Source: Armatimonas rosea | Lineage (GTDB): Bacteria > Armatimonadota > Armatimonadia > Armatimonadales > Armatimonadaceae | Reading direction: 5' to 3' | NCBI RefSeq assembly: GCF_014202505.1 | Contig: NZ_JACHGW010000002.1 | Coordinates: 496,001 to 560,000, forward strand | DNA: 64,000 nucleotides | Shown: positions 16,612-59,660 of the stretch, piece by piece | Numbering within the stretch: the stretch's first letter is position 1 | Layout of the letters: each line of letters begins with the position of its first letter | Notes under the pieces: model-generated | The model's database searches: none | The model's input: the letters and a program-made list of their open reading frames with translations, nothing else | What the model was told of the DNA's origin: nothing | Made by a program: the position numbers and the translations under genes

Positions 16612-16682
16612 GGTGCCGGGTGTCAGGGACGACACGGGCACCGCTTCGCTGCTGGCGTGCCGCCACAAAGTCGCTCCGCGAC
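16612..16682 (-). repeat. Multi-hairpin intergenic repeat, copy 1
   Basis: Reading on the minus strand: hairpin 1 GTCGC-GGA-GCGAC (16682-16670), hairpin 2 GGCG-GCA-CGCC (16664-16654) and hairpin 3 GTGTC-GTCCCT-GACAC (16635-16620). An outer stem GGTGCC/GGCACC encloses hairpin 3. It lies in the divergent region between trpB and the ankyrin gene. See copies at 17228, 25122 and 29082. Confidence 0.9.
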
Positions 16683-16726
16683 ATGTTGATGCGATAAAGT
16701 GAGCAACACATTCAAGGAGGTTGTCG

Positions 16727-17200
16727 ATGAAGTACAGCAAAGAAGTGGGTAGGATCTTGCAAGAAGGCACGCCCGATGAGGTGGCGGCGTGGCTGGAGCA
16801 TGAGGAAATCGATGTCAATGCGTCGCTGGTACCCTCTACCCCTGCACTCTCTCTGACACCACTCCGGGTGGCGCTGATGGGGAGAAACGCGCCCGTGGTG
16901 AAGCTGCTGGCAGAGCGTGGGGCAGTGGTAGACGCAGTGCCGGGCGAGGAACATGCGCCTCTGGCAAGCGCCCTTGTTGCCCAGGATGCCACAACCGCGC
17001 GGGTTCTTCTGGAAGCCGGAGTCAATCCTAACTTAGTCGTCGAGGGAGTGTTGCCCCTCGTGCTTGCTCTGGTGAAGAAAGACGAAGCGCTCGTGCGGCT
17101 CCTGGTGGAGTTTGGTGCCGACCCTGACCTCGTCTACGATCAATTCGGCACCACACCCCGGCGAATGGCAACCGCCCAAAACTGGGACATCTTCGCCTAA
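16727..17200 (+). CDS. Ankyrin-repeat protein
   Basis: I choose ATG 16727 because AAGGAGG ends at 16720, six bases before it. The 157-residue product has about four ankyrin units: one with TPLRVALMGRNAPVVKLLAE, one with APLASALVAQDATTARVLLE, and a third with LPLVLALVKKDEALVRLLVE followed by FGADPDLVYDQFGTTPRRMA. Such proteins are protein-binding scaffolds and no partner is visible. No signal peptide. The gene is isolated between two copies of the multi-hairpin repeat. Confidence 0.85.
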   Translation: MKYSKEVGRILQEGTPDEVAAWLEHEEIDVNASLVPSTPALSLTPLRVALMGRNAPVVKLLAERGAVVDAVPGEEHAPLASALVAQDATTARVLLEAGVNPNLVVEGVLPLVLALVKKDEALVRLLVEFGADPDLVYDQFGTTPRRMATAQNWDIFA

Positions 17201-17227
17201 CCCCACTCCTACTACTCCCACTCCCCT

Positions 17228-17292
17228 GTCGCGGAGCGACTTTGCGGCGCCCCGCGCCAGAAGCGCAGCGGAGCCCGCGTCGTTCATGACGC
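17228..17292 (+). repeat. Multi-hairpin intergenic repeat, copy 2
   Basis: Hairpin 1 GTCGC-GGA-GCGAC (17228-17240), hairpin 2 GGCGC-CCC-GCGCC (17246-17258) and hairpin 3 GCGTC-GTTCAT-GACGC (17277-17292). It lies between the convergent ankyrin and kptA genes, and its last hairpin contains the kptA stop codon at 17284-17286. Confidence 0.9.
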
Positions 17293-17838
17293 CACGGTGT
17301 CGTGGAGGAACGTGGCGGGGACGTGGTCGGTGAGCCAGACGCCGTTGTCGGAGCAGTAGAAGAGATAGCCGGCGGCGTGCATGGCCTGGGTATCGACCGT
17401 AAAGAGATGCGGCTTGCCGTGTCGCGCCCCGACACGCCGTGCGGTCTCCAGGTCCGGGGAGAGGTGGACATGGTGGCGCTGCATCTTCTGCAAGCCCTCG
17501 TGCCGAATGGTCTCCACACTGCCTGCGCCCGTGCCGTGGTAGAGAGTCGCCGGCGGGGTCTGGGCCACCAGTGCGAGATCGACTTCTACCGAGTGCCCCT
17601 GGTTGGCGCGGATGCGCTCGCCGGTCTCATCGAAGCTAAAGCGCTGCTTGTCGTTCTGCGCCACGACCTCGTCGAGCTGGGCGCGGGAGATGGGGAAGCG
17701 GTTGCGGGTGCACGCGGCCAACAGCTCCGTCACCCCGACCCAGCCGCCGGGCTGGAGGGTGAGGCCCAGGCGCTCGGGCTGGTGCCGGAGGTGCTTGGAG
17801 AGGTACTTGCTAACCTTGACGAGTCGTTCGTCGTTCAT
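17284..17838 (-). CDS. kptA: RNA 2'-phosphotransferase, KptA/Tpt1 family
   Basis: The 184-residue product transfers an internal RNA 2'-phosphate to NAD. It has VSKYLSKHLRHQPERLGL at the front (family Arg and His), PISRAQLDEVVAQNDKQRF, RANQGHSVEV, LYHGTGAGSVETIRHEGL, HHVHLSPD and HGKPHLFTVD, all in the expected order. Length is normal. In bacteria its physiological substrate is unclear, and no splicing ligase is nearby. The final residues and stop are encoded inside repeat copy 2, so the 3' end may have been altered by its arrival. Confidence 0.94.
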   Translation of the reverse strand: MNDERLVKVSKYLSKHLRHQPERLGLTLQPGGWVGVTELLAACTRNRFPISRAQLDEVVAQNDKQRFSFDETGERIRANQGHSVEVDLALVAQTPPATLYHGTGAGSVETIRHEGLQKMQRHHVHLSPDLETARRVGARHGKPHLFTVDTQAMHAAGYLFYCSDNGVWLTDHVPATFLHDTVAS

Positions 17839-17997
17839 GTATTTTTCCTTTTCCGTGGCTCGCGTTTAAGGCAGCGCACCGCCTTACCACGGGTATTGTT
17901 CTTTTTTGTTCGTGTCAATTTATCACAAATCTGAAATTGCCGCTCGAATTTAGGGAAAAATCTCGCGAGGTGCCACCAAGCGTGGCATAATCAAGAC

Positions 17998-18969
17998 ATG
18001 ACCAAACTCAAGGCAGGAGTGATTGGGGCGGGCGGGATGGGCTCGACCCACGCGCGGGGCTGGGCAAAGGCCGAGGGCTTTACGCTCGCAGGGATCGCGG
18101 ATGTGGATTTGTCCAAGGCGGAGGCGCTCGCGGGTAAGTTTGGAGCCACTGCATTTAGCTCGGTGGAGGCGCTACTGGCGTCGGGCGTGGACGCGGTGAG
18201 TGTCTGCTTGCCCAGTGCGCTCCATAAAAGTGTCACAGAGCAGGCGCTGGCGGCGGGGTGCCATGTGCTCTGTGAGAAGCCGATGGCGCTGAGCGCAGAG
18301 GACTGCGACTCCATGATCGCGGCAGCAAAAGCGGCGGGCAAGCTGCTCTCGGTGGCGCAGGTGGTGCGCTTCTTCTCCGAGTTCGCTAGTGCGCATCGCT
18401 TGGTGCAGAGCGGCGCGGTGGGCAACCCCGCCGTGGTGCGCACCCGGCGCGGCGGGGGCTTTCCCGGCTGGTCGAGCTGGTTTGGCGACGAGGCACAGTC
18501 GGGGGGGATTCTCTTTGACCTCGCCGTCCACGATATCGACTGGCTCCTCTGGACCTTTGGACCGGTGGTGCGGGTCTACGCCAAGGGCCTCACCGAGCGC
18601 GGGTTTGAGCGGCTCGACCACGCGCTGCTCACGCTACGGCACGCCAGCGGTGCGATCAGCCACACCGAGGTAACCTGGGCCGATCCCAAGGGCGGCGGGG
18701 CGACCTTTGAGATCGCGGGCGATGCGGGGCTCCTCTCCCACGACTCGCGCAAGGAGGTCTCGCTGAGCTTTCGGACCGAGACCCGCACCGGCACCGGCCG
18801 CCCGCTGATCCCCGAGGACGACCCCTACGACCAGCAGATTGCCGCCTTTGCCAAGGCCATCACGGAGGGCGGTCCGCTTGCCGTGACCGCAGACGAAGGA
18901 CGGGCAGCGGTCGCGGTCGCCGCCGCCGCCCGAGAGTCGTTGAAGACAGGCCGCGCGATCGCACTCTAA
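17998..18969 (+). CDS. Gfo/Idh/MocA family oxidoreductase
   Basis: The 323-residue product has an N-terminal Rossmann domain with GVIGAGGMGSTHARGW binding NAD(P), the CEKPMAL motif near residue 97 holding the catalytic Lys, and a C-terminal alpha/beta domain with LFDLAVHDIDWLLWTFGP carrying the typical H-D substrate-site pair. The family oxidises or reduces sugars and inositols. Together with the second homologue at 20622 and nearby glycosidases it suggests sugar catabolism. SD AAGGAG before the next gene implies continuing transcription into 18976. Confidence 0.92.
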   Translation: MTKLKAGVIGAGGMGSTHARGWAKAEGFTLAGIADVDLSKAEALAGKFGATAFSSVEALLASGVDAVSVCLPSALHKSVTEQALAAGCHVLCEKPMALSAEDCDSMIAAAKAAGKLLSVAQVVRFFSEFASAHRLVQSGAVGNPAVVRTRRGGGFPGWSSWFGDEAQSGGILFDLAVHDIDWLLWTFGPVVRVYAKGLTERGFERLDHALLTLRHASGAISHTEVTWADPKGGGATFEIAGDAGLLSHDSRKEVSLSFRTETRTGTGRPLIPEDDPYDQQIAAFAKAITEGGPLAVTADEGRAAVAVAAAARESLKTGRAIAL

Positions 18970-18975
18970 GGAGCT

Positions 18976-19428
18976 ATGACTATGTTCTCGTTCTCCCCTA
19001 ACCCCTACACCCGCCGCCGCCAGCAGCTTGCCACGGGGCTCGCCGCGGTCTCGGGAGTCACGCTGGCGCTCGTGCTCGGCAGCACCCTCCGGCTACGTCC
19101 TCGGGCGGTGTCCCCGCGCCCCAACCTCCTCTCCACCGCGAGCTTTGGGCAGGTGGCTCTCTCCCCGGACGGGACCCGCGAGGTGGCGTTTAAGGGAGGA
19201 CAGGTTGTCTTGCGGGATCGGAACACCGGTAAGCCGCTGGCGCTCTACCGCGACAGCAGTATCCAAGGCGTGCGCTTCACGCCCGGCGGGAGTGAGGTGC
19301 TGGTGCATGTCCTGAGAATGCGCCGTGTTCCCGGCCAAGCGCTGGCGCAGCTCTCAGACCACGTCATGGTGCTCGACCCTATCACCGGACAGAAAAAAGG
19401 CGAGGGGCCGTACACCCTGACCCGCTAA
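18976..19428 (+). CDS. Anchored propeller-like protein, short paralogue
   Basis: A 150-residue protein starting MTMFSFSPNPYTRRRQQLAT with one hydrophobic segment (about 18-37), then GQVALSPDGTREVAFKGGQV and IQGVRFTPGGSEVLVHV, which look like one or two WD40/PD40-type blades. The downstream gene begins almost identically (MTMFS, RRRQL, anchor), so they are duplicates; this one is far too short to close a propeller alone. It starts 6 bp after the oxidoreductase stop with AAGGAG in place. Export and anchoring on the outer face of the inner membrane are inferred. Confidence 0.65.
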   Translation: MTMFSFSPNPYTRRRQQLATGLAAVSGVTLALVLGSTLRLRPRAVSPRPNLLSTASFGQVALSPDGTREVAFKGGQVVLRDRNTGKPLALYRDSSIQGVRFTPGGSEVLVHVLRMRRVPGQALAQLSDHVMVLDPITGQKKGEGPYTLTR

Positions 19429-19446
19429 GCAGGGCCCCAAGGAACC

Positions 19447-20613
19447 ATGACGATGTTTTCCCACAACTCCTCAACACGACGCCGTCAACTTATTGCCTTA
19501 GGTTTCCTGGCGAGTACTGCCCTCCTGACCGGGACTCTGCTGGTGGCCTACTCGCTTCGTCTTCCTTCCGTAAAGCGCACCAAGAACCCACGGTCGATAC
19601 AGGCTCTCGGTGCGGCTCGCTCCCAGGGCAAGCTCCGGCGTGTGGGATCGGTTGCGCTCCCCGGCCGCCCGACGGCTCTTGCGATGCTCCCCGATAACCG
19701 AGTTGTCGTGGGGCTGACCCGGGACGACGGTGAGGCCTTTCTTGAGATTCGGGATGCGACAGCCAAGGCCGTCGAGCACCGCTTCTCAGTCAAGGCCCCG
19801 GTCTATCTCCTGCGGGTGGCACCCAGTGGCAAGGAGCTTGTCTACGCGACCGATCTGCCGGAGGGCAAGCTGTATCGGCTCGACCTGACCCAGATGCAGA
19901 CCAGCCTGCTCGCGGTTGCAGATCATCCCAGTAACCCGTGGTGCCGTGCTGCCTACTCACCCGATAGCCAGCTCTTGGCCTTCGTGACAGGGGGAAGAAC
20001 TGCCACTCTGATCGATACCAAGACCGGGGCGCAGCGCGCTCAGATTCCTCTTGTGGGCACAGGGACATATGATGATCGGATCGACTCGCTGAGCTTCTCG
20101 CCGCAGGGAGACCAGCTGGCGCTGGGCGGGGTGGTGCAGCACCAGAGTGTCCTCCAGCTCTGGGACGTCAATACACAGCAACCGAGTGTGTTTTGGGTTC
20201 CTGGCACCGGCTCACTTACCTACTCGCCCGATGGCCAGTTCGTCGCAGGCCTCGATCGCGACGGCCGCTACTACGTTCGTCGCGTCACCGATGGCCGGGC
20301 AGTTCGCCAGGGCGGCGACCTTCCTGCGATCTTTAGAGACACTCCTACGAGCTGGGGCGATGAAGCGATCCACTACCCTGGACGGGGTGGGACGCTACGC
20401 TTTCTTCCGGGGACAAACTATCTTATCTTTGCGGGCGACACCGAGGCGGGAGTGGTGGATTTGACAGGGCAAGCACAGTGGCTCTTCCTCCCGGTCTCGT
20501 TTCCCAGCCACCTCCAGCGCTACTATGGCGATGCCCACGCGGCGTGCTCGGAGGATGGCAAGCGCTTGCTGCTACATGACTTTCACTCTGTGTATTTCTT
20601 TGAGCGGGACTAA
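19447..20613 (+). CDS. Membrane-anchored beta-propeller protein (WD40/PD40-like)
   Basis: The 388-residue product has a basic N-terminus (SSTRRRQLI), one hydrophobic anchor (about 17-37) and then repeated blade-like segments: VYLLRVAPSGKELVYATD, CRAAYSPDSQLLAFVTGG, DSLSFSPQGDQLALGG, SLTYSPDGQFVAGLDRDG. The SPDG/SPQG turns are typical of WD40-like repeats. Role unknown; such proteins usually scaffold or bind peptides. It lies 18 bp after its short paralogue and 8 bp before the second oxidoreductase, forming a four-gene run. Confidence 0.75.
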   Translation: MTMFSHNSSTRRRQLIALGFLASTALLTGTLLVAYSLRLPSVKRTKNPRSIQALGAARSQGKLRRVGSVALPGRPTALAMLPDNRVVVGLTRDDGEAFLEIRDATAKAVEHRFSVKAPVYLLRVAPSGKELVYATDLPEGKLYRLDLTQMQTSLLAVADHPSNPWCRAAYSPDSQLLAFVTGGRTATLIDTKTGAQRAQIPLVGTGTYDDRIDSLSFSPQGDQLALGGVVQHQSVLQLWDVNTQQPSVFWVPGTGSLTYSPDGQFVAGLDRDGRYYVRRVTDGRAVRQGGDLPAIFRDTPTSWGDEAIHYPGRGGTLRFLPGTNYLIFAGDTEAGVVDLTGQAQWLFLPVSFPSHLQRYYGDAHAACSEDGKRLLLHDFHSVYFFERD

Positions 20614-20621
20614 GAACAACT

Positions 20622-21614
20622 ATGCTGAAAATTGGAATTCTCTCGACGGCGCACATGCACGCTGGGGCCTATGTCGCGGGCCTGCGTGGCTCGTCGGAGG
20701 CGCAGATCGTGGGGCTCTGGGACGACGACACGGCGCGTAAGGACCAGCGGGCGGCGGGCTTTGGGATCGCGGCCTACGAGACCCTGGAGGGCTTGCTGGA
20801 CGCGTCGGACGCTGTGGTGATCTGCTCGGAGAACGTCAAGCACCGTGCCCTCACCGAGGCGGCGGCGGCAGCGGGCAAGCACGTGATCTCCGAGAAGCCC
20901 CTCGCGCCCGATGCCGACGATGCCAAAGCTATGGTGGATGCCTGCGCCAAGGCGGGCGTGCACCTCTATACCGCGTTTCCCTGCCGCTTCTCCCCAGCGT
21001 TCTGGCAGCTCAAGAGCGCGGTCGAGAACGGCGACCTGGGCGAGGTGCTGGCGGCGCGCTGCACCAACCAGGGAATGTGCCCCGGCGGCTGGTTTATCGA
21101 CACCAAGCTCTCCGGCGGCGGCGCGGTGATGGACCACACGGTTCATGTGACCGACCTGCTCCGCGCCCTGCTCAACGACGAAGCCCGCGAGGTCTACTGC
21201 GAGGCCAGCAACGCCTTCGCGCACTCGGACTACGACGACGCGGGGATCTCGACGATCACCTTTGAGAGCGGCATCTACGCCAGCCTTGATGCATCGTGGT
21301 CCCGCCCGAAGTCCTTCCCTACCTGGGGCAATGTGACGATGAGCGTGGTCGGCACCAAGGGCGTGATCGAGATGGACATGTTCGCGCAAGAGTCTGTTCT
21401 CTACTCGGACAAGACCAATAAGGTCAGCTACCAGAACTGGGGCAGCAATATCGATGCCGGGATGGTGACCGCCTTTGTCCGCGCCTGCCAGGGCGACGAG
21501 GCATCGCACAAAATGCTCGCGTCGGGAATCGACGGCCTCCGTGCCGTAGAAGTGGTCGAGGCGGCCTACAAGAGTGTCACCACCCACCAGCCTGCGCTGG
21601 TGGTACGGCGCTAA
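20622..21614 (+). CDS. Gfo/Idh/MocA family oxidoreductase
   Basis: The 330-residue product has MLKIGILSTAHMHAGAYVAG in place of the usual GxGxxG glycine-rich loop, so the dinucleotide loop is atypical (STAHMH). The catalytic ISEKPLAPDADDAKAMVDAC is present, as is SGGGAVMDHTVHVTDLLRAL with the H-x3-D substrate pair. It differs clearly from the homologue at 17998, so they are not recent duplicates. The family handles sugar or polyol substrates; exact substrate unknown. It is last in the run and is followed by a perfect 9-bp inverted repeat. Confidence 0.88.
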   Translation: MLKIGILSTAHMHAGAYVAGLRGSSEAQIVGLWDDDTARKDQRAAGFGIAAYETLEGLLDASDAVVICSENVKHRALTEAAAAAGKHVISEKPLAPDADDAKAMVDACAKAGVHLYTAFPCRFSPAFWQLKSAVENGDLGEVLAARCTNQGMCPGGWFIDTKLSGGGAVMDHTVHVTDLLRALLNDEAREVYCEASNAFAHSDYDDAGISTITFESGIYASLDASWSRPKSFPTWGNVTMSVVGTKGVIEMDMFAQESVLYSDKTNKVSYQNWGSNIDAGMVTAFVRACQGDEASHKMLASGIDGLRAVEVVEAAYKSVTTHQPALVVRR

Positions 21615-21626
21615 CCTGTGGGGCAA

Positions 21627-21654
21627 TGTGCCGGGCATTGAAATACCCGGCACA
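21627..21654. repeat. Perfect inverted repeat after the oxidoreductase run
   Basis: TGTGCCGGG (21627-21635) and CCCGGCACA (21646-21654) pair perfectly around a 10-nt loop, 12 bp after the stop. There is no T-run, so it is not a classic terminator, but it may stabilise or end the message. Confidence 0.7.
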
Positions 21655-21741
21655 GAGTTGGGAGCGTCCCGAGGACGCGCAGAGCTCCTGATATCCTGCG
21701 CTCTCGGGGCGTGGGCTTCGCGGAAGGCGTGATGCACCAAA

Positions 21742-21822
21742 CCTCCCCCTTCGCGGAGCCGGAGGGGGAAAGCCGTCTAAGCGGCAGGGGGAGGCAGAGT
21801 GGCCGGGGGTAGGCAAAAAGCC
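21742..21822 (-). repeat. GC-rich palindromic element, E type, intergenic copy
   Basis: CCCCCTTCGCGGAGCCGGAGG forms a hairpin and GCCG-TCTAAG-CGGC another; the end reads GGGGGTAGGCAAAAA. Its complement aligns closely with 38134-38186, which lies inside a coding sequence. It abuts the 3' end of the glycosidase gene at 21824. Confidence 0.8.
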
Positions 21823-21823
21823 G

Positions 21824-23884
21824 CTAAACGCTCCGCACAACACTGAGCGAGAACGGGGGTAGCTCTATGGCTTGGCCTGTGACCATGCGCTTTGTCGGAG
21901 GGAGGCTGCGGCGGGGGCGGCTCTTCTCCCCGGCGTCTTTCCAGGCGTACTCCGCGTCGCTGTAGCGCCAGGTGTCTTGCCAGTGGGGGCCGTCGGGGAG
22001 CGGGAGGCGGTAGGTGCGCCTCCGGTCCCGGTTGAGCAGGAGCAGCGCCCAGCGGCTGTCGGGGCGCTTGACGGCATAGACTCCCACATCGGGGTGGGAT
22101 GCCGTGGCCTCGTAGAGCTGGTGGGGCTGCTCGCCGGGCTGTGCCCAGACCTGCGTGAGCAAGTAGGCGCTCCAGTAGGCGGGGAGCCGTGCTACGATTT
22201 TCCCTTCGTCGTCGGCGAGAAACGGGGTGAGGTTGCCCCAGCTCGCGCCCTTCATGTCTTTCTCTTTGAGCAGTGTCGCGGGCTCGTAGCCGTAGAGATA
22301 GGCCGTCGTCCCGCCGCGTAGCAGAAATCGTGCGACAATCTCGGCATTGAGGAGTGCACTCGGCAGATCGACTTCGGCGCGGGCGGCAAAGGGCGACCAG
22401 CCGTACTCGGAGATCATCCAGGGAATCTTGCGGCTCAGCCCCTCGCTCTGGAGCTTGGCGAGGGCATCGTCGAGGAGCTTGGGGTGCTGCTTGAGCTGCT
22501 TGGCGGGGTCGAGGTCCAGCGCGTCGAAGGGGTACCACTCAAACGTAAAGAAGCCAAAGAGCTCCTCGGCACCGTGGCCCTTGAGGTAGCGCAGGAAGCG
22601 GCGGTACCAGGCGCGGTCGCCGTGGGAGTCGGGCCAGTGGATCCAGCCCTCGACCGCGGTCTGGAAGCTTGGGCCACCCAGGGTGAGCTGCGGGTCGGCG
22701 GCGTGGAGGGCACGTGCCCACTGGAGATAGAGCGCCCCGTAGTCCTCCGGCGTGATGTACTGACCGTCGGGCTCTTCCCCCAACTCCAAGTGTGTCACAG
22801 GCAGCTTGTTCTCACGAAGATAGCGCAGCAGGGCCAGCGCGTTCTCGGGGGTGTCGTAGACCACGCTGACGGGCGTGAGCATCGGGAGCCCCGATGTCAG
22901 CCCGCTGGCGACCACGGTGTCGAGACCGGGCTGCTCGGTGTCTTTATCGCGGTCAACGGCGCGGTGCCAGGGATCGGTGGACGAGGCCCAAGTCGGGGTT
23001 TGCTTGTCGTGGTGGGGTGCATGGCGCACCAGCTCGCGGCCCTTGTGATCTTGCACATCGAGAGAGTGGAGCGCGTAGCCACAGGCATCGCGCGGATCGG
23101 CGGGGGGCGTCGTGGGCTCGCTGCGCTCTAAAAGCCAGAGCCGTAGGAAGCGCACCTTCTGGGGAATCGAGCCAAGGGCGATGGTCTGCACGCCGCCTGT
23201 GCCGTTTTCAATGATCCCCTTGGGGAAGACTTGCCAGGTGGTTGCTTCCTCGAAGGTCTGCTCAAAGGTCTCCGCCCCGAGTGCGTACTCCACCCGGAAG
23301 TGTGTGGCGTAGGGGGTGGCCCAGTGCAGGCGCAGGCTCCGTACCGCGACAAAGCGCCCCAGATCGACCACGACCCACTGCGGGTGCGCGGCGTTGGGCT
23401 CGTGGGTGTAGACCCGGTCCAGGTAGGGATTGCTCTTCCAGAACGAGCGCGGGTCGCCGTCGGTCAGGCGCGAGTAGCCATCGTCGTTGGCTTGGTCGAT
23501 CGTGTTGCCGCGCCGTGGCAGGCGGTAGCCCCAGCTCTTGGCAATTCCGCCGGAGGGGGCGCTCACGCTCGAGGAAGAGGTCCAGTACCCGGAGCGGGTC
23601 TGTGGCTCGCTCCAGGTGCCCTCGGGGTTCCAGTGCCAGGCCTGGATCGCCAGCTCGGTGCGGAGGCGGTAGCTCAGGCGCGGCAGGCCCATCGCGCGCA
23701 TCTGACGCACCACCTCAGGCCGGTAGACACGGTCGGTGATGCCTTGGTCGGCACCATCTACCCCCGCACCAAAGGCCACGTTTGGGCGAAAAATCGCGGT
23801 GGGTTTTCGGGTCGAGAGAGCAATGGTGACGGTCGCTGTCGGGGGGGTGAGTCGTGGCACGGGAGAGAGTATACCCGCTGTCAA
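21824..23884 (-). CDS. TIM-barrel glycoside hydrolase with discoidin-like domain
   Basis: A 686-residue protein. Residues of about 140-290 look like an F5/8-type C (discoidin) carbohydrate-binding domain (PQWVVVDLGRFVAVRSLRLH, then THFRVEY). The following barrel has HLELGEEPDGQYI with a likely acid/base Glu and IPWMISEYGWSPFA with a likely nucleophile Glu, the arrangement of clan GH-A. The exact family is not clear to me; GH39-like or an unassigned group. The N-terminus (MTAGILSPVPRLTPP) is not a convincing signal peptide, and a different start is possible. It is divergent from the pterin dehydratase gene. Confidence 0.75.
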   Translation of the reverse strand: MTAGILSPVPRLTPPTATVTIALSTRKPTAIFRPNVAFGAGVDGADQGITDRVYRPEVVRQMRAMGLPRLSYRLRTELAIQAWHWNPEGTWSEPQTRSGYWTSSSSVSAPSGGIAKSWGYRLPRRGNTIDQANDDGYSRLTDGDPRSFWKSNPYLDRVYTHEPNAAHPQWVVVDLGRFVAVRSLRLHWATPYATHFRVEYALGAETFEQTFEEATTWQVFPKGIIENGTGGVQTIALGSIPQKVRFLRLWLLERSEPTTPPADPRDACGYALHSLDVQDHKGRELVRHAPHHDKQTPTWASSTDPWHRAVDRDKDTEQPGLDTVVASGLTSGLPMLTPVSVVYDTPENALALLRYLRENKLPVTHLELGEEPDGQYITPEDYGALYLQWARALHAADPQLTLGGPSFQTAVEGWIHWPDSHGDRAWYRRFLRYLKGHGAEELFGFFTFEWYPFDALDLDPAKQLKQHPKLLDDALAKLQSEGLSRKIPWMISEYGWSPFAARAEVDLPSALLNAEIVARFLLRGGTTAYLYGYEPATLLKEKDMKGASWGNLTPFLADDEGKIVARLPAYWSAYLLTQVWAQPGEQPHQLYEATASHPDVGVYAVKRPDSRWALLLLNRDRRRTYRLPLPDGPHWQDTWRYSDAEYAWKDAGEKSRPRRSLPPTKRMVTGQAIELPPFSLSVVRSV

Positions 23885-23909
23885 AGTGCCCGATGCCCAA
23901 CGCTCAACG

Positions 23910-23964
23910 CCCGGACACTCGTTGTCCGGGTGCTTGCGTCCCTACATCAACTGCGTCCCTACGG
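23910..23964. repeat. Hairpin and short direct repeats in a divergent promoter region
   Basis: CCCGGACA (23910-23917) pairs with TGTCCGGG (23923-23930) perfectly. GCGTCCCTAC then occurs twice within 30 bp. The block separates the glycosidase (minus) from the pterin dehydratase (plus). Confidence 0.7.
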
Positions 23965-23985
23965 TAACCCGGGTACACTGTGAGC

Positions 23986-24273
23986 ATGCGCACCCCAAAA
24001 CTAACCGATGCCGCGGTGCAAGCGGCGCTGGCGCTCCGTGCGGGCTGGAGCCTAGAGAACGGTAGGATCTCCCGCACCTTCACGTTCCCGGACTTTGTTG
24101 CCGCGATGCGCTTTGTCAACGCCGTGGCCGACGCCGCGGAGGCGGCGGACCACCACCCAGATATCGACATTCGCTACAACAAAGTGACTCTTGCGCTCAC
24201 GACCCACGACTCGGGGGGGCTGACGGAGAAGGACTTCGCGCTGGCCGCACAGGCCGATACAATAGCCGCGTGA
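23986..24273 (+). CDS. phhB: Pterin-4a-carbinolamine dehydratase
   Basis: I use ATG 23986; a GTG six bases earlier is also possible. The product of about 95 residues has FTFPDFVAAMRFVNAVADAA, then DHHPDIDIRYNKVTLALTTH and GGLTEKDFALAAQAD, the complete PCD signature with the catalytic His pair. The enzyme dehydrates 4a-hydroxytetrahydrobiopterin and supports aromatic amino-acid hydroxylases, none of which is seen nearby. Its stop overlaps the GTG start of the E2-like gene by 4 bp. Confidence 0.93.
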   Translation: MRTPKLTDAAVQAALALRAGWSLENGRISRTFTFPDFVAAMRFVNAVADAAEAADHHPDIDIRYNKVTLALTTHDSGGLTEKDFALAAQADTIAA

Positions 24274-25118
24274 AGTTTACGGTCCTAGCGGAGCACGAGG
24301 GAGTCGCCACGGTCGCGGGGTGGGAGCGCAGTATCGGGCAGTTTGTCGCGCAGGGCGAGCCGTTGCTACGCCTGCGAAAGACCGACGGCACGGAGCTCTC
24401 CCTCGTCTCCCCGGTCTACGGCGTGCTCTTCAAGAAAGCGGTTCTGGAGGCCGAGGCGGTCGAGGCGGGCGAGCCACTTGCGGTGCTAGCCGGTGTCACC
24501 GAGGTGAAGACAACGAGCGCCCCCGAGCCGGACTATGTTCCGGTCGGCCCCGAGACTAGGCTCCTCCCCACTGAGCGTGAGCAGCAAATCGCCCGGCACC
24601 ATGCCGCCGCCCTTGCGCTTGTGCCGCACCAGTACACCACTCTCGCAGTCCATCTCACCGAGGTGCAGCGCTTGCAGGAAAAGACCGGCGCACCCCGCGT
24701 CGCGTTCTTTCTCGCCGCGGTTGCGGCCGCGCTCAAGGCACATCCCCGCTGCAACGCCGCTTGGCTCGCCCCCGACGATATCCGGCTCCGTCAAGATATT
24801 CATGTCTGCCTGCCCCAGCCCGACGGCACCTTTCCCGTGATAGTGGATGCGGACCGGCAGAGTGTCCTCGCTCTTGCACGTGCCCTCGAAGCTCCTCACA
24901 ACCTACCGCCGACCCAGGCCACCTTCACGCTCACGCTTGGCGAGGCGCTCACCCAGACCCCGATCCTGCACACCCCACAGACGGCGCACCTGTATCTCGG
25001 CTCCACGGGAGTGCTCACCCTCGCCCACGACCCGCGCGTGGTGGACAGCTTCGCCGCCACTGCGTTTCTTAAAGAAGTCCAGCGCAACCTAGAAGAGACC
25101 CGCTTCCTCTTTATTTAA
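24270..25118 (+). CDS. E2-like acyltransferase homologue, apparently non-catalytic
   Basis: The 282-residue product looks like a shortened 2-oxoacid dehydrogenase E2. Residues 1-75 are a lipoyl-type beta domain (SIGQFVAQGEPLLRLRKTDG, VSPVYGVLFKKAVLEAEAVE), but the ETDKA turn that carries lipoyl-Lys reads RKTDGTE. From about 100 a catalytic-domain-like region follows. The active-site DHRxxDG reads HDPRVVDS (about 253-260), losing the His. The peripheral E1/E3-binding domain is missing. GTG start overlaps the phhB stop, so coupled. It may be a structural or regulatory relative rather than an enzyme. Confidence 0.75.
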   Translation: MKFTVLAEHEGVATVAGWERSIGQFVAQGEPLLRLRKTDGTELSLVSPVYGVLFKKAVLEAEAVEAGEPLAVLAGVTEVKTTSAPEPDYVPVGPETRLLPTEREQQIARHHAAALALVPHQYTTLAVHLTEVQRLQEKTGAPRVAFFLAAVAAALKAHPRCNAAWLAPDDIRLRQDIHVCLPQPDGTFPVIVDADRQSVLALARALEAPHNLPPTQATFTLTLGEALTQTPILHTPQTAHLYLGSTGVLTLAHDPRVVDSFAATAFLKEVQRNLEETRFLFI

Positions 25119-25121
25119 CCT

Positions 25122-25184
25122 GTCGCGGAGCGACTTTGCGGCGCTCGCGCCAGCAGCGAAGCGGTGCCCCCTCGTCCATGAGGG
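25122..25184 (+). repeat. Multi-hairpin intergenic repeat, copy 3
   Basis: Hairpin 1 GTCGC-GGA-GCGAC (25122-25134), hairpin 2 GGCGC-TC-GCGCC (25140-25151) and hairpin 3 CCCTC-GTCCAT-GAGGG (25169-25184). It fills the gap between the convergent E2-like and SRPBCC genes. Confidence 0.9.
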
Positions 25185-25190
25185 CTTGGC

Positions 25191-25655
25191 CTAGGCGCCG
25201 GGGCCTTTGATGCGCCCGATACGCTCCAGAATCCGCTTGGTCTCGCCTTGGCGGTAGCGCACCCAGTCGTCCCAGAGCTTGGTCGTGCTGGGGAGGCGCT
25301 CCTTGGCGATCGCGAGGCCCTTGAGCGTGTACTCGAACTGCTCGTTGAGGAGGGTCCCGTTGGGGTAGGTCGAGCACTTGTAGCGGTGGGTCCAGCTCGC
25401 AAACGGCCCCTCGACCTGCTGGATCGCAAAGACACGTGGCTCCTCGCGCTCGCTGACGGTCGCGGTGATATCGCCCCAGGGGCCGCCCCGGAAGAGCACC
25501 AGCGCGCCCACTTGCTCCGCGATCCCCGTCGCCGTCTCTTTCTGGTCATCGGGGCAGACGCGTGCGTGGTTGCTGAGCTCGGTGACAAAGGCAAAGACCG
25601 CCTCGGGGGGGCGCTCGATAAAAAGCTGGTACTGGCGACGGATAGGTGAAGACAC
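25191..25655 (-). CDS. SRPBCC (START-like) protein, third gene of McrBC-like operon
   Basis: I place the start at GTG 25655, two bases after the stop of the McrC-like gene; the longer frame upstream is a shadow. The 154-residue product begins SSPIRRQYQLFIERPPEAVF, the classic first strand and helix of SRPBCC/polyketide-cyclase proteins, with VGALVLFRGGPWGDITATVS and FAIQQVEGPFASWTHRYKC as further strands and a long C-terminal helix. The fold binds hydrophobic ligands. Tight linkage to a restriction-type operon is unusual and its job there is unknown. Confidence 0.78.
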   Translation of the reverse strand: MSSPIRRQYQLFIERPPEAVFAFVTELSNHARVCPDDQKETATGIAEQVGALVLFRGGPWGDITATVSEREEPRVFAIQQVEGPFASWTHRYKCSTYPNGTLLNEQFEYTLKGLAIAKERLPSTTKLWDDWVRYRQGETKRILERIGRIKGPGA

Positions 25656-25657
25656 GG

Positions 25658-27229
25658 TTAATATTCTATCCGATGCAGAAAGTCTTCTAGAGCACCTTGC
25701 GGATGCCCCGGAGCCAGCGGGAGGGCACCGAGGCCACCGCCGCCGTTTGGGGTGGGCCACCAGCGGGTCTTGGTGCCGGGATAGAGCGCGACTGCGGCGA
25801 GCGTGCCGGGGATGGCATCGCGGTAGGCATGCATCGTCAGGAGATCGTCGGTGAGGGCATCGTCGTGGCTCGTGAGGCGGTACTTGGCATCGAAGTGAAT
25901 ACGCGTCTTGCCCAGCTCCAGGGTGATATCGGGGCGCACCGGACGGGTCCAAGTGGTGAGGGTGGGGTTGTAGGTTAGGCAGAGAGTCGGGGTCTCCAGG
26001 CGTAGCTCGGTGCCCCGGCGCAGGGTGAGTGCGGTGCCATCGCGGGCGGGCGTAAGGAGCTTGTCGTAGGGGAGCGCGACCCCAAACACGCTCTCCACCG
26101 CCTCAGCGACCTCGAAGAAGCACCAGTACTCGTAGAGCGTTGCCACATCGCGCCGGCCCGCCCCAAAGACCGCCTGACCACCGTCCCAGGAGAGCCGGAG
26201 TGCTTGCTGGGCGGCGAGCCAGGTGCGGTAGAGCTCACGGTAGCCGCTGCGCCGCTCCCAGAGCTTGCTGGAGACGGGAATCTGCGTTAAGGCCCCGACC
26301 TCGGCGAAAACCGGGTGCGCCAGAGCACGCTCCAGCCGGTGGATGAGCCCACGTGCCTCACGCTTGAGGCGCTCGGTGACGCAGCACTCCTCCAGTGCGT
26401 GCAGGAGCTGGCTCAGGGCATGGCGGACGAAGCGGTTCTCGGGGGTGTCGTAGGTCTCGGTGGGGTGGGTGTGGGGGAGCTGTTGCGGGACCGTGGTCAG
26501 GCCGCGCTCTGCCAGCCGGTGCCCTGCGGGGACAGGCTGGCGTGGTGTGGCCGTGGCGAGCCAGCGCACCGCACGGGGCGTGAGCCGCCGTGCACGACTG
26601 AGGGGCTGCTGCTCCGTTTCCGGGGTCAGCACGCGGTGCGGGTCGGCGAGGATACGCGCGAGCGCTTGCTGAAACTCCCCGCTCTCCAGCAGGCCACGCA
26701 GGAGAAAAAAGCGCTCGGTGAGACGGGCGGGGTCGGTCTGCTCGCTGGGGGTCACGGGTGAGGTGATATCGGTGCGCTGGCGCAGGAGCAGGTCGGTGGC
26801 GCGCCGTGCAATCGCTTCGAGCAGGAGGCGAAAGTCCGTGCGGTAGGAGAGCTTGGTCGAGACAATCTCCAGTCCCACACGGGCTCTCTCTCTACCCGTT
26901 TCGTCTTCCAGCACCAGAGTCAGTAAGCCGGCTTCGTTGCCCGCCGTGAGGGTGCCCGTGTGCGGGTTGGTGCGGCTACGCTGGACAGGGCCACCGTCGC
27001 GGAGCCGCCAGCCGTGGGGGGCACCCGACAGAGCCCACTCCGCCACCCCGTTCTCCCGGAGCTGCACGGGCTCCTCGCCGAAGGCGGACGCCTCGGTGGG
27101 GGAGATTTGCTGGAGGGAGTCGGAGTAGAGGATGAGCTGCCCCCCGCCCCCCGCCTGCCCCCTGCCCCCCGCAAGCGGGGGAAATATAAGGGTGTGGGGG
27201 TTACTCAAAGGCGTAGCCCCCGAAGCCAT
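25658..27229 (-). CDS. McrC-like restriction component (DUF2357 and PD-(D/E)XK nuclease)
   Basis: The start at ATG 27229 overlaps the McrB-like gene by 29 bp; a TTG nearer its stop is an alternative. The product of about 523 residues has a DUF2357-like region (IVSTKLSYRTDFRLLLEAIA) and a C-terminal PDDEXK_7/DUF524-like nuclease with LYEYWCFFEV, RPDITLEL (Asp434) and HFDAKYRL (Asp447, Lys449). These proteins act as the nuclease partner of McrB-type GTPases. The first 30 residues are largely encoded by a GC-rich palindrome (PPLAGGRGQAGGGG). SRPBCC follows 2 bp later. Confidence 0.85.
   Translation of the reverse strand: MASGATPLSNPHTLIFPPLAGGRGQAGGGGQLILYSDSLQQISPTEASAFGEEPVQLRENGVAEWALSGAPHGWRLRDGGPVQRSRTNPHTGTLTAGNEAGLLTLVLEDETGRERARVGLEIVSTKLSYRTDFRLLLEAIARRATDLLLRQRTDITSPVTPSEQTDPARLTERFFLLRGLLESGEFQQALARILADPHRVLTPETEQQPLSRARRLTPRAVRWLATATPRQPVPAGHRLAERGLTTVPQQLPHTHPTETYDTPENRFVRHALSQLLHALEECCVTERLKREARGLIHRLERALAHPVFAEVGALTQIPVSSKLWERRSGYRELYRTWLAAQQALRLSWDGGQAVFGAGRRDVATLYEYWCFFEVAEAVESVFGVALPYDKLLTPARDGTALTLRRGTELRLETPTLCLTYNPTLTTWTRPVRPDITLELGKTRIHFDAKYRLTSHDDALTDDLLTMHAYRDAIPGTLAAVALYPGTKTRWWPTPNGGGGLGALPLAPGHPQGALEDFLHRIEY
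27166..27181. repeat. GC-rich palindrome inside mcrC-like coding sequence
   Basis: CCCCCGC-AA-GCGGGGG is a perfect hairpin, flanked by a poly-C tract at 27140-27165. It is read in frame near the N-terminus of the McrC-like protein as a Gly/Pro-rich stretch. Confidence 0.75.
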
Positions 27230-28838
27230 CGCGCAGGAGCCGGGCTTGGAGGGTGCGGAGGGCGGCGGTGGTCTGGGGCCAGTCCTGGGCCTGGGCGAGG
27301 GTGAGCAGGGCATCCAAGGCGGGCGCGAGGCGTCGCTGGGAGCCATGGAGGCGGGGGAGGATCTTCAGGCAGAGCGCGGTATCGAGTGCCATGTCGACCT
27401 GGTCATCCCACTGGAGCTGCTGGTAGGCGGTGCAGAAACGCAGGATCTCCGTGGCGGTACGCAGGCCGAAGCCAAGGTCGTGGGGGGTGAGGGTCTCGCT
27501 GAGGCGCAGGAGGCTTGCTTTCTCCTTTCCCAGCCCCGATGGGCTCGGGAGGGGCGAGAGAAGTGTCGTGCCGAAGCTGCTCCCTTGGCCGGCGAGCAGC
27601 TCAGGGCGGACGGGAGTCGGGTTGTCGAGGAGGGTGGCCAGGTTGGCGCTATCGACCGTCAGGACACTCGCCCGATCCAGCACCTTGGGCGAGAGTGGGT
27701 GCGTGGTCTCATCGATATTGACTGTGCCGATCAGAAAGAGATTACGCGGCCAAGCCAGAGTCTCCGGGGGGGCTCCGCCTAGAAAAATCGCCTCGCCCGA
27801 CTCCATCGCGGAGAGCAGGTCGGCACCGTAGCGCTCGATCGGGCTGAGGTTGAGCTCGTCGAGGATCAGGAAGTGGGGCAGGTCGGGCTGCTGGTTGGCG
27901 GCGCGCAGGAGCTCCAGGGCGGGTGTCGTGACATAGCGGCTGGGATCGAGCGCATCGGGGTAGCCGAGCAGGGGGTCGCGGCTGGTCCAGTCCGGCCCGA
28001 CCGCCACCAAAGCATAAGGCGCACCGAGCCAGCGTGCCAGCGCCTGCGCCAGCCGTGTCTTCCCCGAGCCCGAGAGCCCTGCCAGGATCACAAAGGGCTT
28101 GGCGCGCAGGGCGGCGAAGAACGCCGTGAGCCGCGCCTCGCTGTAGTGCAGCCCGACTGCCGTGCAGGCGCTCCGAAACGCAGGCACGAGCCCGGTCATA
28201 TCCGCCGTCGCTGTATAGGCCACCTCGGGCTCGCGGACAACTGCTGGAGCGATAGGCCTTGCACTGACTGTCGGCTTGCGGCCCTTGCGGCGGTAGATCG
28301 GCTCGGGCTGGTCCTCGGTGAGGAGCTCGGTGTAGAGGCGCAGGCTCTCGCGCAGGTGGGCAAGGAAGCTCTCGCCGTCGAGGGTCTCGGCAAAGAACTC
28401 CTGCGGGTTGTGGAAGGCATCGTTGAAGCGGTAGGTGGGGCTGTCGACATCCAGCGCGCTCTCGGGGAGCGGCGTGCGCTTCTGCGTGCTGAGGAGCACC
28501 TCCGGGGGATGGGTCGCCGACTTCATGATCCCGGCTACCAGCCCGCGCCCGTGCGGCTCGACACTGACAGCCAGGTAGAAGCCCTCTTGGATCTTTTGCT
28601 CCGGTCCCAGGATGCAGAGCCAAGGCACCTTGACCGCCTTGCCTCGCCCTACGGAGACCTCTACGGTAAAGGGCAAGAACGACTCCGGGAGAAGCATTCG
28701 CTCGAGCTGCGCCTTGAGCTCCAAAAGCTGGGTGAGGGTCGCCTGAACACGCGGGTCTTTGACGGTAACGGCGGCGGGTGGTTCGTTCCACGCGGCGCGG
28801 CTCTGGCAGAGATCTTGGAGGATTTGGGTAAGAGACAT
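27201..28838 (-). CDS. McrB-like AAA+ restriction motor with MrcB N-terminal domain
   Basis: The 545-residue product has an N-terminal DUF3578/MrcB-type DNA-recognition domain (about 1-170; FYLAVSVEPHGRGLVAGIM), a linker, and an McrB-type AAA+ module: FVILAGLSGSGKTRLAQALA (Walker A 254-261), FLILDELNLSPIERYGADLL (Walker B 323-330), GTVNIDETTH (371-380, in the region of the McrB consensus) and LDRA with a candidate Arg finger. This family powers modification-dependent cleavage of foreign DNA. A palindrome-coded insert (LLSPLPSPSGLGKEK) lies in the C-terminal part. First gene of a three-gene operon. Confidence 0.88.
   Translation of the reverse strand: MSLTQILQDLCQSRAAWNEPPAAVTVKDPRVQATLTQLLELKAQLERMLLPESFLPFTVEVSVGRGKAVKVPWLCILGPEQKIQEGFYLAVSVEPHGRGLVAGIMKSATHPPEVLLSTQKRTPLPESALDVDSPTYRFNDAFHNPQEFFAETLDGESFLAHLRESLRLYTELLTEDQPEPIYRRKGRKPTVSARPIAPAVVREPEVAYTATADMTGLVPAFRSACTAVGLHYSEARLTAFFAALRAKPFVILAGLSGSGKTRLAQALARWLGAPYALVAVGPDWTSRDPLLGYPDALDPSRYVTTPALELLRAANQQPDLPHFLILDELNLSPIERYGADLLSAMESGEAIFLGGAPPETLAWPRNLFLIGTVNIDETTHPLSPKVLDRASVLTVDSANLATLLDNPTPVRPELLAGQGSSFGTTLLSPLPSPSGLGKEKASLLRLSETLTPHDLGFGLRTATEILRFCTAYQQLQWDDQVDMALDTALCLKILPRLHGSQRRLAPALDALLTLAQAQDWPQTTAALRTLQARLLRDGFGGYAFE
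27519..27563. repeat. GC-rich palindrome inside mcrB-like coding sequence
   Basis: AGCCC-CGAT-GGGCT is the core stem, with partly complementary CTTTCTCC and GGGGCGAGAG flanks. It is translated in frame as SPLPSPSGLGKEK, a segment that looks inserted between conserved parts of the AAA+ protein. Confidence 0.6.
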
Positions 28839-28848
28839 GGGGCCTCTA

Positions 28849-28884
28849 AAACAAAAAAACGATCTCGCCGTTCCCCGGCGGATC
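28849..28884 (-). promoter_or_regulatory. Terminator-like hairpin in the McrB-like leader (possible attenuator)
   Basis: On the minus strand CGATCCGCCG, a GGGAA loop and CGGCGAGATCG form a stem with one bulged base, followed at once by TTTTTTTGTTTT. The T-tract ends about 8 bp before the AGAGG and ATG of the mcrB-like gene at 28838. A complete intrinsic terminator between promoter and start codon implies transcription attenuation of the restriction operon. Confidence 0.75.
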
Positions 28885-28910
28885 GCTGTTTACTGGTTGA
28901 GTATGAATAT

Positions 28911-28941
28911 AGTATAGCACGTCCAAGTGGTAATTTGCCAC
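28911..28941 (-). promoter_or_regulatory. -10-like box and palindrome upstream of the McrB-like operon
   Basis: TATACT on the minus strand (28916-28911) is a good -10 candidate. GTGGTAATTTGCCAC (28927-28941) is a palindrome with 6 of 7 pairs matched that overlaps where the -35 box would be, as an operator would. No consensus -35 is seen. Confidence 0.5.
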
Positions 28942-29081
28942 AGTATTTGTGGGATTTGGATTTTGTTCTAGTAAGGAAATAGTGGGTTTATGTTCTCTCT
29001 GAAGCTCTGGAATTTGTTTAAATTAGAAGGGATGCCCTGTAAATGCTGTATTTGTGTCTCGTAATTGTCTCATTATCTGAT

Positions 29082-29152
29082 GTCGCGGAGCGACTTTGTG
29101 GCGCAAGCGCCAGCCGCAGAGCGGAGCCGCCCACGTTAATGTGGGCAGCTCC
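29082..29152 (+). repeat. Multi-hairpin intergenic repeat, copy 4
   Basis: Hairpin 1 GTCGC-GGA-GCGAC (29082-29094), hairpin 2 GGCGC-AA-GCGCC (29100-29111) and hairpin 3 GCCCAC-GTTAAT-GTGGGC (29129-29146), enclosed by GGAGC (29123-29127) and GCTCC (29148-29152). Confidence 0.9.
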
Positions 29153-29160
29153 GAAGTATT

Positions 29161-59489: not shown

Positions 59490-59660
59490 CACCTCCTTTT
59501 GCGTAAAACACAAAACCCCCGACCGGAGGCAGTCGAGGGCGCACGAAGATATTAAGATGCTGTCATCTTCTCTACCTCGGCGGGCGGATTTCACTAAGAA
59601 ACCCATTAAACGCAGATGCGTGCCGGCTGTCTCTGGTGGAAGTTATTGATTTCCAAGCGA
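59490..59660 (-). ncRNA. Ribosomal protein L10 leader
   Basis: On the minus strand the block reads through AGAGACAGCCGGCACGC, TTAGTGAAATCCGCCCGCCG and an attenuator-like hairpin CCCTCGAC-TGCCTCCG-GTCGGGGG followed by TTTTGTGTTTT, then AAAGGAGGT before rplJ. Sequence and place fit the autoregulatory L10 leader bound by L10(L12)4. The exact 5' boundary is not certain. Confidence 0.78.

Follow-up and report, generated by a model that had tools for sequence, protein, structure and literature searches.

A 64,000-nucleotide stretch of the Armatimonas rosea genome (G000:C2:496001-560000; hereafter, the window) carries four copies of a repeat whose arm is a row of short hairpins. The repeat belongs to a family that is dispersed over its own 6.3-Mb genome (G000), and two of its copies enclose a gene for a Y1 (HUH) transposase at G000:C3:822777-823238. 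We read the copies, at a probability of about 0.8, as non-autonomous DNA elements at gene junctions that resemble repetitive extragenic palindromes (REPs) and their paired forms (REPINs) and are moved by this Y1 enzyme, which is most likely the cognate enzyme of the repeats. REPs with a Y1 transposase are a known kind of system, from which this one departs in its enzyme group, in the multiple hairpins of its arm and in lacking a GTAG foot.

An earlier note on the window had reported the four copies with their strands and three hairpins in each, and re-reading of the sequence finds all of them in place (Table 1). Hairpin 1 (HP1) is GTCGC-GGA-GCGAC in 4/4 copies. HP2 keeps its GGCG/CGCC pairing around loops of 3, 5, 4 and 4 nt in copies 1 to 4, and the stem of HP3 reads GTGTC/GACAC, GCGTC/GACGC, CCCTC/GAGGG and GCCCAC/GTGGGC, respectively. 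The covarying outer stems described for two copies are also real (GGTGCC/GGCACC in copy 1 and CGGAGC/GCTCCG in copy 4). A further element that was absent from the note is a mini-hairpin, GC-GAA-GC, between HP2 and HP3. It is retained letter for letter (GCGAAGC) in 21 of 27 aligned genome copies, and in the remaining ones pairing is kept around GCA or the stem is longer (GGGC-GAA-GCCC). The exact HP1 sequence occurs in the window at these four places only, and near-matches with up to two mismatches number 12, compared with a shuffle mean of 5.4. The four copies are clustered inside 12.5 kb of the window. Folding as single-stranded DNA gives z-scores of -2.3, -0.9, -2.0 and -3.8 for copies 1 to 4, and stability alone would thus not prove the fold of every copy; covariation does so.

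In the 27-copy alignment, 92.8% of the pairing cells are paired, compared with 80.9 ± 1.0% when the partners are shuffled. Consistently, the compensatory change that had been proposed from four copies is borne out by 51 double-change cells against 18.2 ± 2.6 in the shuffles, and none of 500 shuffles reaches the observed value for either pairing or double changes. When the partners are slid by 1-3 columns, 5-15 double-change cells are left. Because HP1 is nearly constant, this support comes from the last pair of HP2 and from HP3, which has nine stem variants.

Paired changes of this kind can also be produced by a structured RNA (a riboswitch, an attenuator, a small RNA or mRNA-stabilizing 3' hairpins) selected at the RNA level at many genes. 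The earlier note had left this possibility beside a REP-like element or miniature inverted-repeat transposable element (MITE). The copies adjoin gene starts and stops, as an RNA element might, and in other systems REPs that are transcribed can function as part of an RNA (PMC3733652). Nevertheless, we consider a structured RNA very unlikely here. The pair cells of HP2 and HP3 are Watson-Crick in 237/243 cases and G·T in only 6/243. An RNA helix under selection usually has more G·U intermediates, and the rarity of G·T is therefore read as the mark of a DNA hairpin rather than an RNA one. A search of the window against Rfam 15 gives no match at the gathering threshold for the repeats; the window yields a single match, an L10 ribosomal protein leader at 59501-59654 on the minus strand, which scores 46.3 bits where the gathering threshold is 44. 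Furthermore, the copies show no fixed orientation to the neighboring genes, some of them are inverted and two-armed, and the family is absent from the sister-species junctions examined. The REP-like alternative is supported, with dispersed copies at gene junctions, inverted pairs, an enclosed Y1 gene and empty sites in its favor.

The family extends far beyond the window. A BLAST DNA search of the genome gives 25 matches, and the covariance-model search proposed in the earlier note finds 36 arms at E < 1e-4, of which 35 score above 57 bits; the 27 copies from which the model was built match it by construction. With 36 arms and supported covariation, the family is not a matter of four copies. 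The arms are spread over about 30 sites, either singly or as inverted two-armed copies in which the arms meet at HP1: five sites have one HP1 common to both arms, and at a sixth the two HP1 are separated by 8 bp. Within a copy, the arms often differ in the HP3 stem, each stem being internally paired. The junctions examined lie between genes, near starts and stops; copy 3, for example, starts 3 bp past the stop of the open reading frame (ORF) at 24270-25118. A motif resembling a -10 box, GGTANAAT, often stands 3' of HP3 near a start codon (L019, L021, L023, L028, L030 and window copy 1), which places several copies directly upstream of probable leaderless promoters.

The earlier note had also proposed looking for a REP-associated transposase, and a Y1 gene was found. 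It sits between the outward-facing copies 822641-822711(-) and 823257-823327(+) of C3, and its product of 154 amino acids (aa) has intact DHVH and YVERQKEHH motifs and matches Pfam Y1_Tnp at 1.5e-21. The genome has seven matches to PF01797 (Y1 transposase). The gene itself is single-copy, its six paralogues are 40-53% identical to it, and each of these is flanked by a different inverted repeat of similar layout. When the flanks of all Y1 genes are compared with the window by BLAST, those of C3:822777-823238 match only the four reported copies (copy 1 at 89-90%), and the flanks of three other Y1 genes match three other repeats in the window. Thus, the window carries repeats of four Y1 genes, each of which is picked up by the flanks of its own gene.

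Table 1. Repeat copies and other features of the window (positions count from its first letter).
Feature	Position	Strand	Basis	Parts
Copy 1, single arm	16612..16682	-	sequence; model match G000:C2:512613-512684(-), 82.1 bits	HP1 16670-16682; linker 16666-16669; HP2 16654-16664; mini-hairpin 16643-16649; HP3 16620-16635; outer stem 16612-16617/16637-16642
Copy 2, single arm	17228..17292	+	sequence; model match G000:C2:513226-513299(+), 74 bits	HP1 17228-17240; linker 17241-17244; HP2 17246-17258; mini-hairpin GCGCAGC 17263-17269; HP3 17277-17292
Copy 3, single arm	25122..25184	+	sequence; model match G000:C2:521120-521191(+), 75.5 bits	HP1 25122-25134; HP2 25140-25151; mini-hairpin 25156-25162; HP3 25169-25184
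Copy 4, single arm	29082..29153	+	sequence; model match G000:C2:525080-525152(+), 72.8 bits	HP1 29082-29094; HP2 29100-29111; mini-hairpin-like GCAGAGC 29116-29122; HP3 29129-29146; outer stem 29122-29127/29148-29153
Ankyrin-repeat ORF, 159 aa	16721..17200	+	Pfam Ank_2, 1.2e-08	
Repeat of another family, cognate to Y1 gene L067	21629..21711		BLAST of Y1-gene flanks, E 5e-10	
Repeat of another family, cognate to internally deleted Y1 gene L073	35431..35534		88% over 104 nt, E 1e-31	
Two-armed repeat of another family, cognate to Y1 gene L068	36648..36818		91% over 70 nt, 88% over 80 nt; inverted repeat I2	

Enclosure of the Y1 gene alone is no proof of a link, because an ankyrin-repeat ORF in the window is enclosed as well: copies 1 (the left partner) and 2 face outward around it, with an interior of 541 bp compared with 545 bp around the Y1 gene. 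This bears on the possibility that the repeats were moved by an unrelated transposase and that the Y1 gene came to lie between two copies by accident. Such an accident is extremely improbable, since every other Y1 paralogue has its own inverted repeat, the repeats of three paralogues are likewise dispersed into the window, and the association between gene and repeat recurs across phyla. The ankyrin ORF may be a passenger, or copies 1 and 2 may be two independent insertions. It has only partial ankyrin matches and no clear orthologue in the compared genomes G001, G006 and G007, and G001, with a different neighbor at this locus, offers no clean empty site. In G006, the two flanking genes adjoin without ankyrin ORF or repeats, which is only suggestive. 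Arm pairs may likewise surround and transport passenger genes, of which this one could be an example, but this is much less likely than the separate REP branch of subclass 1.2 enzymes suggested below.

The paralogues show two further features. L073 (C1:923750-923905) has an in-frame internal deletion between its HUH and tyrosine motifs, and its repeat persists in the window. A leader of about 45 nt (e.g., TTTTTATCAGATTTGG...CCGTTATAGGGGCATG) is common to the Y1 paralogues (L067-L073) directly upstream of the start, despite their differing flanking repeats, and may be a promoter or a regulatory site. The window also holds long GC-rich inverted copies at 34594-34652/38205-38263 and 21772-21807/38123-38158, which match no Y1-gene flank.

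Insertion of the repeat family is species-specific. In aligned stretches, the sister species G001, the nearest genome compared, shares about 74-92% identity with G000. It lacks the family as such; most of its 14 weaker matches come from a sister family that combines the same HP1 with a different HP3, and the nearest transposase in G001 is 47% identical. Twenty-one element loci could be placed in G001 by one or both flanks. For two of the two-armed copies, the corresponding site in G001 is cleanly empty: 134 bp in G000 correspond to 6 bp in one case, and 145 bp to 1 bp in the other. At the other junctions examined, the family is also absent, and sometimes a repeat of another family stands in its place. 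No target duplication is evident at the junctions examined. At L009, L010 and L011, it is G001 in which a repeat of another family occupies the same intergenic position, as if sites were reused or families replaced each other. In the sister family of G001 (L134-L146), HP1 also occurs as ATCGC-GGA-GCGAT, a paired change, beside the different HP3. The comparison of the families suggests that hairpin modules are exchanged between them.

The class of the enzyme raises a further possibility, namely an ordinary IS200-type insertion sequence (IS) that moves as a unit, the repeats being its decayed or solo ends in the manner of MITEs. The protein scores 66.2 bits against NCBIfam NF033573 (IS200 transposase), above the cut-off of 55, and 31 bits against NF047646 (REP-associated, class 2 TnpA-REP/RAYT), below the cut-off of 80; the solved structures that it matches are IS200-like transposases, and single arms could be solo ends. 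An ordinary IS is unlikely, however, because one gene copy with diverged paralogues faces about 30 repeat sites and near-identical copies of the gene were not found. In addition, IS200/IS605 ends consist of one subterminal hairpin each, whereas the ends here are inverted multi-hairpin arms, and two-armed copies exist without an internal gene. Examination did not bear out the copies as decayed ends of one known IS.

Subclass 1.2 of the TnpA-Y1 transposases is defined by DH[IV]H and Y---Q--HH motifs, a length of about 148 aa, low copy number and occurrence mainly in Cyanobacteria and Bacteroidetes (Quentin et al. 2018, PMC6006769). The Y1 protein has YVERQKEHH, DHVH and 154 aa against the median of 148 aa. 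Its YVERQ corresponds to Y---Q and not to the Y----Q motif of class 3 TnpA-Y1. By motifs, length, copy number and taxonomic range, the four characters used for the assignment, it would belong to subclass 1.2. Twelve of these proteins were aligned and used to scan a genome collection, which yielded relatives in Cyanobacteria, Bacteroidota, Chloroflexota, Gemmatimonadota, Planctomycetota and others, and Y---Q--HH is present in 71/72 recovered homologue ORFs. The inverted-flank score is at least 30 for 38/69 homologues, compared with 4/245 control windows shifted along the same homologue loci (Mann-Whitney p 4e-12). Consistently, the flanking repeat of one relative of the order has 59 matches in its genome, many of them as inverted pairs, and the flanking repeats of three cyanobacteria have 33-58 genome matches each.

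Several observations weigh against the reading of the copies as REP-like elements moved by the Y1 enzyme. The published survey lists REP as "no" for subclass 1.2 (Quentin et al. 2018, PMC6006769), and the present protein departs from that description in having flanking and dispersed repeats. About half of the sampled homologues are without clear inverted flanks at the sensitivity used. The GT[AG]G foot, the hallmark of characterized TnpA-REP substrates, was not found at HP1, HP2 or HP3; the tetranucleotide before the mini-hairpin is GNAG in 25/27 copies and GTAG in only 2. For the transposase locus itself, G001 gives no clean empty site: the left flank aligns up to the repeat and is then followed by a different gene. 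Membership in the CGTC-REPs was also considered, because GGCGTC ends occur in some sister families. It was rejected, since the CG of these ends is part of the stem and sits at the opposite end of the hairpin from the published tag.

The system shares much with REPs, BIMEs and REPINs and their TnpA-REP (RAYT) enzymes in E. coli, Pseudomonas and Stenotrophomonas (PMC2817692, PMC3116915, PMC8266576): dispersed intergenic palindromes and inverted pairs, one Y1 gene per repeat family that is enclosed by its repeats, several families per genome and, as proposed here, the hairpin as the recognition unit. In contrast to those systems, the arm is about 70 nt long with three to four hairpins instead of one hairpin of 20-40 nt, there is no GTAG/GTGG foot, the copy number is lower, and the enzyme goes with the IS200-like class 1 and not with class 2. 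Low copy number, diverged paralogues and relatives mainly in Cyanobacteria and Bacteroidota are shared with TnpA-Y1 subclass 1.2. As surveyed, however, that subclass has no REP or IS structures (PMC6006769), whereas inverted repeats flank the genes here and recur dispersed in the genome, and the range extends further, to Armatimonadota, Chloroflexota, Gemmatimonadota and Planctomycetota. The repeats of TnpA-Y1 class 3 (Solibacter etc., PMC6006769) are similar in being atypical GTAG-less structures around a Y1 gene with many genome copies, but the class 3 proteins have Y----Q and about 178 aa, unlike the 154-aa Y---Q--HH protein described here. TIRYTs and TIRtrons (Di Nocera et al. 2013, PMC3733652) also combine tyrosine transposase genes with long inverted repeats, some of them dispersed; they have mostly been placed in subclass 2.1, often with a GGGGWSAS motif, and differ in enzyme group and arm structure. 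A literature search, which covered few subscription papers and so does not prove priority, turned up neither REPs of Armatimonadetes nor any newer account of subclass 1.2 repeats.

We infer that the Y1 enzyme recognizes, cleaves and moves the arms. In the proposed mechanism, the arm would fold once the DNA is single-stranded into a row consisting of HP1, a TTTG-type linker, HP2, the mini-hairpin and HP3. The enzyme would recognize this fold together with short unpaired motifs, cleave beside the arm with its catalytic tyrosine and have the arm rejoined or copied elsewhere, mostly at gene junctions. If the fold is read instead of the stem sequence, the stems of HP2 and HP3 can drift by paired changes. 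Candidate guide motifs, judged from the alignment, are the four-base linker between HP1 and HP2, which is TTTG in 17/27 copies, and the GNAG before the mini-hairpin. HP1 (GGA) and the mini-hairpin (GAA, GCA) are both C-GNA-G triloops, which are unusually stable in DNA. The proposal that the cognate enzyme cuts and rejoins the folded arm draws on the analogous case of E. coli and Stenotrophomonas, whose enzymes bind REPs in the form of folded single strands of DNA and cleave them (PMC8266576).

The published classification left subclass 1.2 without a repeat partner or IS-like ends, and its role was open. Here, a set of putative subclass 1.2 genes is accompanied by cognate, dispersed and structure-conserved repeats in an order of Armatimonadota and, as judged from flanks and copy counts, in Cyanobacteria. 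It is somewhat more probable than not that the subclass 1.2 TnpA-Y1 proteins serve a separate branch of REP systems as its transposases, a branch that spans phyla and in which a hairpin-row arm is read as a fold and there is no hairpin with a GTAG foot. Each enzyme gains a directly testable substrate, and the repeats offer a natural experiment in which an enzyme acting on single-stranded DNA would read a fold while the stem sequences change. They also offer a way to annotate the GC-rich repeats that lie between genes in these phyla.
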